Shown here: positions 2,367 through 8,971 of the stretch, piece after piece
Layout: each line of letters begins with the position of its first letter
Numbering within the stretch: the first letter of the stretch is position 1
From: a virus
IMG/VR virus record: IMGVR_UViG_3300008107_005973
Coordinates: 1 to 23,668 of that record
Strand: one strand, 5' to 3'
DNA: 23,668 bases
Translations under genes and position numbers: made by a program
The notes under the pieces: generated by a model
What the model was told of the DNA's origin: nothing
The model's database searches: none
What the model saw: the letters and a program-made list of their open reading frames with translations, nothing else

Positions 2367-2486
2367 ACAAAAATGCTAGTTATTTTTGTGTCAGGAAACT
2401 AGCAAACCCCGTGAGCGCAGCCCATCCTGTTTTCGCGTCAGCGGATCCAGAAGCTAAGAAGCATTTGTGTACAGGTCTGGAATGTT
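2367..2486 (-). promoter_or_regulatory. structured 5' leader with two competing helices
   Basis: This 120-nt leader lies between tRNA-Gly and the GluTR-like gene. Read leftwards, GCTAGTT (2403-2397) is followed by a hairpin with stem ACAAAAAT/ATTTTTGT (2389-2382 and 2374-2367). Its entire 7-nt loop, AACTAGC (2381-2375), is complementary to the upstream GCTAGTT. The two can form either a pseudoknot or two mutually exclusive hairpins. The second stem ends 1 nt before the GAGGT ribosome site. Further upstream, CCAGA/TCTGG and CAGGA/TCCTG pairs are visible. This is the architecture of a cis-regulatory RNA; I recognise no known riboswitch class. The first hairpin plus ATTTTTGTT could also act as a terminator. 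Confidence 0.5.
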
Positions 2487-2560
2487 TGGAGCGAGCTACG
2501 GGAATCGAACCCGTGCCTTGAGCTTGGAAGGCTCTAATTCTACCATTAAACTAAACTCGC
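2487..2560 (-). tRNA. tRNA-Gly (TCC)
   Basis: 74 nt. Acceptor GCGAGTT/AGCTCGC, anticodon loop CTTCCAA, T-loop TTCGATT, encoded CCA. It lies 13 nt downstream of the DUF458 gene. Confidence 0.96.
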
Positions 2561-2573
2561 TTTCTATTATATA

Positions 2574-3056
2574 TTACGCCGCCATTGCCATGACCTCTTT
2601 AAGTCTGTCTGCGGCATAGCTTGCAGCAAAAGCATTTGGCTTCACCATTGGTATAATGTTACACATACCTTTAATGTAACCTACTGCTTGTTGAATCACT
2701 ATAGAACTATTATAACATTCTTGCGGATTAATGTCAAGATGAATCTGTACTTCTTTTTCACCAATCACATCGGCATCCACAAGCTTTTGATAAAGCTCTG
2801 CGACTTTGTACACTTCATTCATTAGACGTAAAGACGGTTTACTGTTCTTTGCATCGTAATCAATTTCAGTTTGTACTTCTCCAAAAATCTTACAACCATG
2901 GCGACCATTGATATGAACAACGATTGCAAGAGTATAATCTGCGTACCATTTACCGTCGCGCTTATAGCGTTCCGAATCTGCACCAATATAAATTTTTGTC
3001 TCAGGAGACTGAGCGTGAATAAATTTGGTCACTTCTGCAATATTGATTTTTCTCAT
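2574..3056 (-). CDS. RNase H-like DUF458/YkuK family protein
   Basis: 160 aa. Family hallmarks of the predicted RNase H-fold DUF458 proteins (B. subtilis YkuK) are present in order: IYIGADSERY near 18-27 (first acidic residue), AIVVHINGRHGCKIFGEVQT, SLRLMNEVYKVAELYQKL, IHLDINPQE (second acidic region), a GYIKGM segment, and the terminal KPNAFAASYAADRL. The reading frame continues 16 codons upstream into tRNA-Gly(GCC). I chose the ATG at 3056 because AAAGGTG lies just before it and the upstream codons belong to the tRNA. It is probably a nuclease or nucleic-acid-binding protein. Its place among tRNAs suggests RNA metabolism, but that is inference. Confidence 0.78.
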   Translation of the reverse strand: MRKINIAEVTKFIHAQSPETKIYIGADSERYKRDGKWYADYTLAIVVHINGRHGCKIFGEVQTEIDYDAKNSKPSLRLMNEVYKVAELYQKLVDADVIGEKEVQIHLDINPQECYNSSIVIQQAVGYIKGMCNIIPMVKPNAFAASYAADRLKEVMAMAA

Positions 3057-3157: not shown

Positions 3158-3186
3158 ATTATAACACCTTTTAGAACCCTTGTCAA
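3158..3186 (-). promoter_or_regulatory. sigma-70 promoter P1 (tRNA-Gly/DUF458/rubrerythrin/omega operon)
   Basis: Read leftwards: TTGACA (3186-3181), 17-nt spacer, TATAAT (3163-3158), both perfect. The spacer ends CTAAAAGGTGT, a string shared with the promoters at 5538 and 7356. Preceded by TGC, as in most promoters of this set. Confidence 0.9.
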
Positions 3187-3198
3187 GCATAAGGGTAT

Positions 3199-3272
3199 TG
3201 GCTCCGGTGGAGGGAATCGAACCCCCGCTAACGGTTTTGGAGACCGCCGCACTACCATTATACTACACCGGA
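3199..3272 (-). tRNA. tRNA-Trp (CCA)
   Basis: 74 nt. Acceptor TCCGGTG/CACCGGA, discriminator G, anticodon loop CTCCAAA, T-loop TTCGATT, encoded CCA. Confidence 0.96.
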
Positions 3273-4736: not shown

Positions 4737-4825
4737 ATATAGGAACACACTCAGGCGTAGTAGTTCGTTAGCCCACTAAGATACACAGCTACCACCTGTG
4801 TCATTAGTTGAATGTGTTTTTATAT
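4737..4825 (-). ncRNA. structured RNA unit 1
   Basis: 89 nt. Arms ATATAAAAACACATTCA and TGAGTGTGTTCCTATAT pair over 15 of 17 positions (two adjacent A-C mismatches). Interior hairpins: ACACAG-GTGGTAG-CTGTGT and TTAG-TGGG-CTAA. Confidence 0.6.
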
Positions 4826-4832
4826 AATTACC

Positions 4833-4910
4833 ATATAGGAACACACTTCGGATACTGTACTAAACAGAAACTATCCATCACGGGGGACCCGCTGAAATGT
4901 ATTCTTATAT
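4833..4910 (-). ncRNA. structured RNA unit 2
   Basis: 78 nt. Arms ATATAAGAATACATTTC and GAAGTGTGTTCCTATAT pair over 16 of 17 positions, two as G-U. Interior hairpins: CGGG-TCC-CCCG, and GGATA/TATCC enclosing CTGT-TTAGT-ACAG with a 4-nt bulge. Confidence 0.62.
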
Positions 4911-4917
4911 AATTACC

Positions 4918-4991
4918 ATATTGAAACACACTAACGGGAGCTACCCTTAAGACAGACTTCGCTACTCTGTCAATATAGTATGCTTCAATAT
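4918..4991 (-). ncRNA. structured RNA unit 3
   Basis: 74 nt. Arms ATATTGAAGCATACTA and TAGTGTGTTTCAATAT pair over all 16 positions (two G-U). Relative to unit 2, both arms change together (AAG/CCT to TGA/TCA), a compensatory difference. Interior hairpins: GACAGA-N9-TCTGTC and GGG-TAGCT-CCC. Confidence 0.65.
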
Positions 4992-4998
4992 AATTACC

Positions 4999-5071
4999 AT
5001 ATAGAAACACACTATTGGGAATTCAACCCAAGTCCGGCGACCGGCACGACGCTGTTAATATGTTCTTATAT
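4999..5071 (-). ncRNA. structured RNA unit 4
   Basis: 73 nt. Arms ATATAAGAACATAT and GTGTGTTTCTATAT pair over 13 of 14 positions. Interior hairpins: CCGG-TCG-CCGG, and TTGGG-TTGAATT-CCCAA. The second has the 5-bp stem and 7-nt loop of a tRNA T-arm and sits where a T-arm would. Confidence 0.62.
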
Positions 5072-5078
5072 AATTACC

Positions 5079-5170
5079 ATATAGAAATACTCTCGACCTC
5101 CAGTTACCGTAGTGATCAACCTACTTTTAACCTTCACGGGCCCTGCGTCCAGTTTAGAGTATTTTTATAT
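5079..5170 (-). ncRNA. structured RNA unit 5
   Basis: 92 nt. Arms ATATAAAAATACTCT and AGAGTATTTCTATAT pair over 14 of 15 positions. ATACTCT/AGAGTAT is a covarying change from the ACACA/TGTGT of its neighbours. Interior: GTTA/TAAC enclosing GTAG-GTTGATCA-CTAC; the other interior hairpin is less clear. Confidence 0.58.
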
Positions 5171-5172
5171 AA

Positions 5173-5243
5173 TGAAATAGTGAACAGGATTTGCACCTGT
5201 GCCCACAGCCTCCGGCTGCACTCTCCTACTAAGCTATCACCAT
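5173..5243 (-). ncRNA. tRNA-like sequence with truncated anticodon loop
   Basis: About 70 nt. Acceptor ATGGTGA/TCACTAT (7 of 7 with one G-U), then TA, D-arm GCTT-AGTAGGA-GAGT, and a perfect T-arm ACAGG-TGCAAAT-CCTGT. The anticodon arm is only 13 nt (CAGCC-GGA-GGCTG), four short of normal, with no T33 or readable anticodon. There is no encoded CCA, unlike all 28 tRNAs. Either a decayed tRNA or a tRNA mimic. Its acceptor 5' strand overlaps the closing helix of unit 7. Confidence 0.6.
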
Positions 5244-5332
5244 ATAGAAACACATTACCCGCATGAATATCCGGCATATCTACAAATATGTCCGACTGTT
5301 GTAGCAGTCAATGCAATGTGTTTTTATATGGT
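5239..5332 (-). ncRNA. structured RNA unit 7
   Basis: 94 nt. Arms ACCATATAAAAACACATT and AATGTGTTTCTATATGGT pair over 17 of 18 positions (one A-C). The leading ACCA is the discriminator and CCA end of the upstream tRNA-Lys. Interior hairpins: GACTG-CTACAA-CAGTC, and CATAT-TTGTAG-ATATG flanked by GG/CC. Confidence 0.62.
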
Positions 5333-5537: not shown

Positions 5538-5566
5538 ATTATAACACCTTTTAGAATCCGAGTCAA
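5538..5566 (-). promoter_or_regulatory. sigma-70 promoter P2
   Basis: Read leftwards: TTGACT (5566-5561), 17-nt spacer ending CTAAAAGGTGT, TATAAT (5543-5538). It would drive the basic protein, tRNA-Lys, the structured units and the tRNAs to their left. Confidence 0.85.
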
Positions 5567-5579
5567 ATGCTCGGGTATT

Positions 5580-7355: not shown

Positions 7356-7384
7356 ATTATAACACCTTTTAGTAACCCTGTCAA
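7356..7384 (-). promoter_or_regulatory. sigma-70 promoter P5, head of the tRNA array
   Basis: Read leftwards: TTGACA (7384-7379), 17-nt spacer ending CTAAAAGGTGT, TATAAT (7361-7356), both perfect. Preceded by TGC. It lies just after a terminator. Confidence 0.9.
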
Positions 7385-7404
7385 GCACAAGGTTATTAAA
7401 AAGT

Positions 7405-8918: not shown

Positions 8919-8947
8919 ATTATATAGCCTTTGTCCATACCTGTCAA
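8919..8947 (-). promoter_or_regulatory. sigma-70 promoter
   Basis: Read leftwards: TTGACA (8947-8942), 17-nt spacer, TATAAT (8924-8919), both perfect, with the same upstream TGC as the tRNA-array promoters. Drives the 135-aa gene and the dehydrogenase. Confidence 0.88.
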
Positions 8948-8971
8948 GCATTAAGTTTAGATGTTGTTCTT

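Follow-up and report, generated by a model that had tools for sequence, protein, structure and literature searches.

A structured RNA with a loop-loop pseudoknot in tRNA-rich phages and on alphaproteobacterial plasmids

Does the short stretch between a tRNA-Gly(TCC) gene and a 91-aa open reading frame (ORF) in a tRNA-rich uncultured phage regulate the gene behind it, or does it belong to an element of its own? We analyzed a 23.7-kb fragment of this phage (23,668 nt, hereafter the window), which contains 28 tRNA genes together with a phage DNA polymerase and a DnaB-like helicase. A sequence-only reading had interpreted the stretch as a pseudoknot-type leader, i.e., a possible riboswitch or attenuator that switches between an open and a blocked state in front of a gene resembling the GluTR dimerisation region. 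The conserved pairing described there is only the 3' part of a larger element (2481-2375), which has tRNA-Gly(TCC) on one side and the ORF on the other, all on the minus strand.

Structure of the element

Neither the leader (z -0.37) nor the RNA element (z -0.03) had a better folding energy than shuffled sequences. As the plain fold was uninformative, we tested the structure by comparison. From 19 phage sequences we obtained the helix order P1 - PKa - P1' - P2 - PKb - P2' - P3 - P3', with 98.2% standard pairs and variation on both sides in 13/27 pairs. The score of this structure was reached by none of 500 shuffles, and slid controls collapsed. R1, a covariance model made from the 19 sequences, gave scores of 51-76 bits for copies on plasmids and in bacteria; among 76 R1 matches 15/22 pairs vary on both sides, in an alignment that was fitted to R1 and hence leans towards the model. 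In a second alignment, prepared separately from 28 members of which most are divergent, 18/24 pairs showed change on both sides.

In this second alignment the pseudoknot helix was paired in 100% of cases, and all four counted pairs vary on both sides. We also tested it independently of any alignment: the five bases ahead of AUGGGCUG had their exact complement upstream in 123/138 cores, compared with 7.3 expected among 138 cores after swapping with another type (94/102 compared with 4.9 in a smaller set). Compensatory changes were found in the inner pairs of P2, for example C-G/A-U/G-C. Between and behind the helices, the segments GAAA, AUGGGCU, GGUUU and CCyGACACAaNAA are conserved and unpaired. 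Judged by these sequence comparisons, 2481-2375 is one copy of a structured RNA family of about 100 nt with three helices and a loop-loop pseudoknot (Table 1). The window contains no second R1 match above noise. A plus-strand open frame across the element was considered and dropped, since the changes are compensatory in RNA pairs and the P1 loops are of variable length.

Table 1. Positions of the structured RNA, its parts and its flanking features in the window
Feature	Position	Strand	Observation
Putative promoter TTGACA-N17-TATAAT	2709..2737	-	Upstream of tRNA-Gly, RNA and ORF; 12/12 consensus match
tRNA-Gly(TCC)	2487..2560	-	3' end 5 nt ahead of the structured RNA
Whole structured RNA, 107 nt	2375..2481	-	One copy; covariance model R1 103.3 bits, E 1e-22
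Hairpin P1, UCCAGA (2481-2476) with UCUGGA (2451-2446)	2446..2481	-	4/6 pairs change on both sides (alignments A3 and A6)
Strand a of the pseudoknot (CCUGU, P1 loop)	2471..2475	-	Pairs with 2430-2426
Hairpin P2, CCGcUGACGC (2444-2435) with GCGcUCACGG (2418-2409)	2409..2444	-	Compensatory changes in inner pairs
Single strand GAAA	2431..2434	-	No variation in A2 and A3, almost none in A6; CGAAA anchored later search patterns, where GAAA conservation is not independent
Strand b of the pseudoknot (ACAGG, P2 loop)	2426..2430	-	Own complement in most cores
Single strand AUGGGCU	2419..2425	-	Near-invariant
Conserved CGGGGUUU, its CGG being the final part of P2	2404..2411	-	Alignments
Hairpin P3, GCUAGUU (2403-2397) with AACUAGC (2381-2375)	2375..2403	-	Every pair varies
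P3 loop UCCUGACACAAAAAU, consensus uCCyGACACAaNAA	2382..2396	-	Alignments
AT hairpin ACAAAAAT/AUUUUUGU around AACUAGC	2367..2389	-	Present here, conserved in 1/100
Downstream gene, 91 aa	2081..2356	-	Marginal similarity to the GluTR dimerisation domain

The downstream gene

The local hairpin on which the switch had been based exists in this phage. Its stem, ACAAAAAT (2389-2382) with ATTTTTGT (2374-2367) on the minus strand, closes the 7-nt loop AACTAGC (2381-2375); the upstream GCTAGTT (2403-2397) is complementary to this loop, both pairings exist, and the ribosome-binding site GAGGTGA lies directly beyond the AT hairpin. Loop complementarity had been named as the property to look for in relatives, and in the form of P3 it is present in 100/102 distinct cores, with 56 different 5' strands. 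A conserved pseudoknotted RNA is present as proposed, but the true pseudoknot is formed elsewhere (2475-2471 with 2430-2426). Comparison does not support the two exclusive states, because a competing AT hairpin (≥6 bp) was present in 1/100 cores, that of this phage.

The proposed link to GluTR and tetrapyrroles fared no better. The 91-aa ORF does resemble GluTR, in the dimerisation domain only and marginally (22-27 bits at a cut-off of 22.9). Syntenic relatives of the ORF were found on four contigs (L003-L006, three of them identical in this stretch), where the GluTR-like gene lies between the same tRNA-Gly and tRNA-Leu. Here the leader is absent, and the ATG of the ORF follows 4-5 nt past tRNA-Gly. 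As the relatives keep the ORF without the leader, we regard the leader as an extra element. Elements downstream of other copies are unrelated. With neither a conserved platform nor a conserved downstream gene, a GluTR riboswitch was rejected.

Distribution and comparison with known RNAs

Well over 100 viral contigs carry the RNA. The collection comprises 215 instances, with some contigs counted more than once; the distinct cores number 138. A block pattern, CAGGATGGGCTGC..CGGGGTTT, matched 57 viral contigs with a gap of always 5 nt, a degenerate core pattern gave 101 matches, and an independent 3' block matched more than 119 contigs, about two-thirds of the matches listed being real members by inspection. 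Each of 22 large phage contigs carrying the RNA has exactly one copy; as an exception to one copy per phage, two copies about 425 nt apart were observed in L165 and L249. Searches of a collection of cultured phages gave no credible blastn match.

A distant blastn search led to intergenic regions on plasmids of Alphaproteobacteria (best E 5e-5), and alignment of these regions revealed the same blocks. Plasmid copies occur in Azospirillum, Methylobacterium, Skermanella and Paracoccus, i.e., in culturable bacteria, which makes the RNA accessible to bench tests. In bacterial genomes we found about a dozen true species matches in 84,980, mostly in Alphaproteobacteria and in one Verrucomicrobia MAG. 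Genome sampling gave 1/385 for Alphaproteobacteria, 1/240 for the phylum of the Verrucomicrobia MAG and 1/200 for one family, where each match was the seed genome only; the RNA is therefore a rare accessory element in bacteria. A match in Rhizobium (L010) lacks the fold and was excluded from the set.

None of the 4227 models of Rfam 15, a library that includes the recent permuted tmRNA model, reaches its gathering threshold with the RNA in the window or its relatives: only tRNA and tmRNA models gave matches, and the best permissive match reached 16.9 bits where 45 are required. Neither ARAGORN nor any Rfam tRNA or tmRNA model matched the RNA itself. Neither motif text searches nor openly licensed papers gave a description of it, and an earlier listing as a candidate motif may exist elsewhere. 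We are nearly certain that the RNA family exists, and by these searches it is an uncatalogued one. It is of a new kind in sequence and fold; a Y-RNA-like function would make it a variant.

By context, the nearest known RNAs are the stable RNAs C and D of phage T4 (species 1 and 2 RNA), which are likewise small RNAs inside a phage tRNA cluster. They have 139 and 119 nt and are annotated without function. They differ from the RNA described here in sequence and structure; with filters off, R1 gave a best overlap of 1.5 bits (E 9.9). Strongly covarying, present in many large phages and shared with plasmids, the family joins the few known phage RNAs as a new kind of gene, and it gives a handle on an old question, the presence of non-tRNA RNAs like RNA C and D in the tRNA islands of phages.

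Bacterial Y RNAs (YrlA), which act with Ro60/Rsr, offer a further parallel, in a subset of phages only, where the RNA lies beside a Ro60-like gene and near tRNA/RNA-repair functions. In contrast to Y RNAs, most carriers of the RNA lack a Ro60-like gene, and the fold of bacterial Y RNAs differs from that of the phage RNA. Permuted tmRNAs (RF04321, RF01850) are structured as well, and several of the carrier phages have them in their tRNA islands, but at separate loci; the RNA matches neither model. A link to permuted tmRNA was rejected, for some carriers have both and yet the tmRNA is not linked to the RNA. A search with RF00023 across the contigs gave only sub-threshold matches, mostly tRNAs. 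Permuted tmRNA genes were noted in the carriers L014, L015, L020, L036, L050, L053, L065 and L118, and also in the lake cyanophage BUCT-ZZ01 (L206), in which the RNA was not seen.

Genomic context and possible function

What follows the RNA varies, and there is no fixed downstream gene. Behind 137 cores we counted 23 tRNAs, 43 terminator-like elements, 25 gene starts and 46 other cases; the scan for terminator-like elements was loose and flagged the window too, where a stricter scan finds none in the stretch it covered. A riboswitch or attenuator in cis would bind a metabolite or tRNA and thereby control translation of the next gene. With roughly 40 conserved positions and its pseudoknotted core the RNA does resemble a typical aptamer, the window has its ORF close downstream, and the 25 gene starts follow closely with their ribosome-binding sites, as a cis element would give. 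However, these genes belong to at least nine unrelated protein families, tRNAs or terminator-like elements lie behind most classified cores, copies on plasmids lie between unrelated genes, the syntenic relatives hold the gene without the leader, and the alternative pairing that would form an expression platform is not conserved. Because nothing is shared downstream and no alternative pairing is conserved, we consider a riboswitch improbable. Terminator-like elements and the placement of the RNA in long operons would also suit an antiterminator in cis that modifies RNA polymerase, by analogy to the put sites of phage HK022. This appears highly improbable, given that a new promoter sometimes lies immediately behind the terminator, e.g., in L014, and that the plasmid copies are isolated.

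Upstream, the RNA begins a few nt behind a tRNA 3' end in 27/102 cores; in 19/102 a tRNA lies directly downstream. Other cores have TATAAT- or T4-late-like TATAAATA elements within 20 nt before P1, at modest enrichment. A self-cleaving ribozyme could trim tRNA 3' trailers in a role akin to that of the HDV-like theta ribozymes. HDV-like ribozymes form a nested double pseudoknot with the helix order P1-P2-P3-P1'-P4-P2', from which the order P1-PKa-P1'-P2-PKb-P2'-P3 found here differs. A fit to the HDV/theta fold, with CGC-UGAN-GCG as P4 and CGAAA as catalytic junction, was excluded by P2 covariation; the CGAAA shared with pistol and hammerhead ribozymes is presumably a superficial resemblance only. 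Theta ribozymes, likewise phage RNAs, lie at the 3' ends of tRNAs and have amber-suppressor phages as some of their carriers (PMC10879173); amber-suppressor tRNAs are encoded by some of the phages that carry our RNA. Against this, most cores have no tRNA directly upstream, no Rfam ribozyme family is matched, and a subset has promoter-like and terminator-like elements of its own, where it is hard to see what cleavage would be for, so that a ribozyme, too, is hardly probable. One form of trans action would be a counter-defence RNA that serves as a decoy for an immune nuclease of the host or for an effector that cleaves tRNAs, or that inhibits such an enzyme. Sporadic occurrence on phages and plasmids, the lack of a fixed neighbour and a single copy per phage genome are consistent with it, and phage tRNA islands have been tied to RNA repair and conflict (PMC7824862). 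We found no target, though, and regard this role as unlikely; by inspection the RNA does not resemble a CRISPR repeat.

We favor, with a probability of about 0.7, a discrete structured small-RNA gene, mainly of uncultured phages and sporadically of alphaproteobacterial plasmids, prophages and genomes, whose product would act in trans as a small RNA of phage tRNA/RNA-maintenance islands, possibly with a ribonucleoprotein partner. The loop-loop pseudoknot locks two hairpins together, and behind them lies a third hairpin, whose loop of 15 nt is conserved. In the window, the RNA is probably co-transcribed with tRNA-Gly and the following ORF from the putative promoter 2737-2709 and may be cut out as tRNAs are; elsewhere it may be made from its own promoter. 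Most likely, the invariant single-stranded segments would then be presented to a protein or to a host RNA.

A candidate for this protein comes from phages without a tRNA directly upstream, in which two genes recur just ahead of the RNA. A Ro60-like gene (DUF2828 plus DUF7788 vWA domain; PHROG 850 'RNA-binding protein') lies directly upstream in 24/138 cores, which belong to few related lineages and hence represent few independent events, and a calcineurin-like phosphoesterase does so in six. Within the DNA retrieved around the RNA, the Ro60-like gene is present in 47 RNA-bearing loci. In another phage lineage, a true TROVE gene lies downstream of the RNA at a distance of 0.5-0.7 kb. According to a published survey, TROVE proteins and phosphoesterases are part of phage RNA-repair systems (PMC7824862). 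DUF7788 or TROVE was found in 9/22 large viral carrier contigs and neither of them in the other 13 or in any of eight bacterial carrier genomes, on which grounds Ro60 was rejected as a universal partner; near the Ro-like genes of six cultured phages the RNA is absent. Since most carriers lack a Ro60-like gene, Ro60 is not an obligatory partner, and the link is suggestive, not general. A Ro60 or RNA-repair role is less likely than not. The Ro60-like RNA-binding protein would be the best candidate partner in phages encoding one, and a host factor might take its place in others. That the RNA represents a new trans-acting class, which in phages and plasmids would combine with a Ro60-like protein or a protein of the host into a ribonucleoprotein that protects, repairs or polices tRNAs during infection, is a rather doubtful extension.

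Several other features were noted around the RNA. An RNase H-like gene (DUF458, PF04308) lies upstream of the tRNA-Gly/RNA unit (2574-3056, minus strand); a DUF458 gene also adjoins a Ro-like gene in Vibrio phage phi-ST2 and, judged by sequence resemblance, is found near the RNA in L199. In L015, L020, L046, L047 and L110, the next gene after the RNA starts with M-x-TAG-IEYAC or similar, with an amber codon at position 3, and several of these phages carry a tRNA with a CUA anticodon. The codon offers a short site, in frame, at which amber recoding could be tested.

Elsewhere in the window, tRNA-Lys and tRNA-Arg are separated by a head-to-tail series of at least six units, each 64-83 nt long (4742-5325, minus strand). 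They share a similar closing stem (AAxACAxATT / AATGTGTTTC), which encloses hairpins that vary and are mostly multi-branched, are joined by a near-constant linker, CTATATGGTAATTATATAA, and have fold z-scores of -1.1 to -4.8. The units give the impression of small stable RNAs in an array, different from tRNAs. We saw no second such array; in a scan with 15 nt of the linker, each contig among the matches listed was hit once. A further element is repeated at 3158-3199, 5538-5579, 7356-7397 and 8919-8960 with 62-88% identity, in or just beyond the tRNA region, and in at least one copy the minus strand (3186-3158) contains a perfect promoter, TTGACA-N17-TATAAT.
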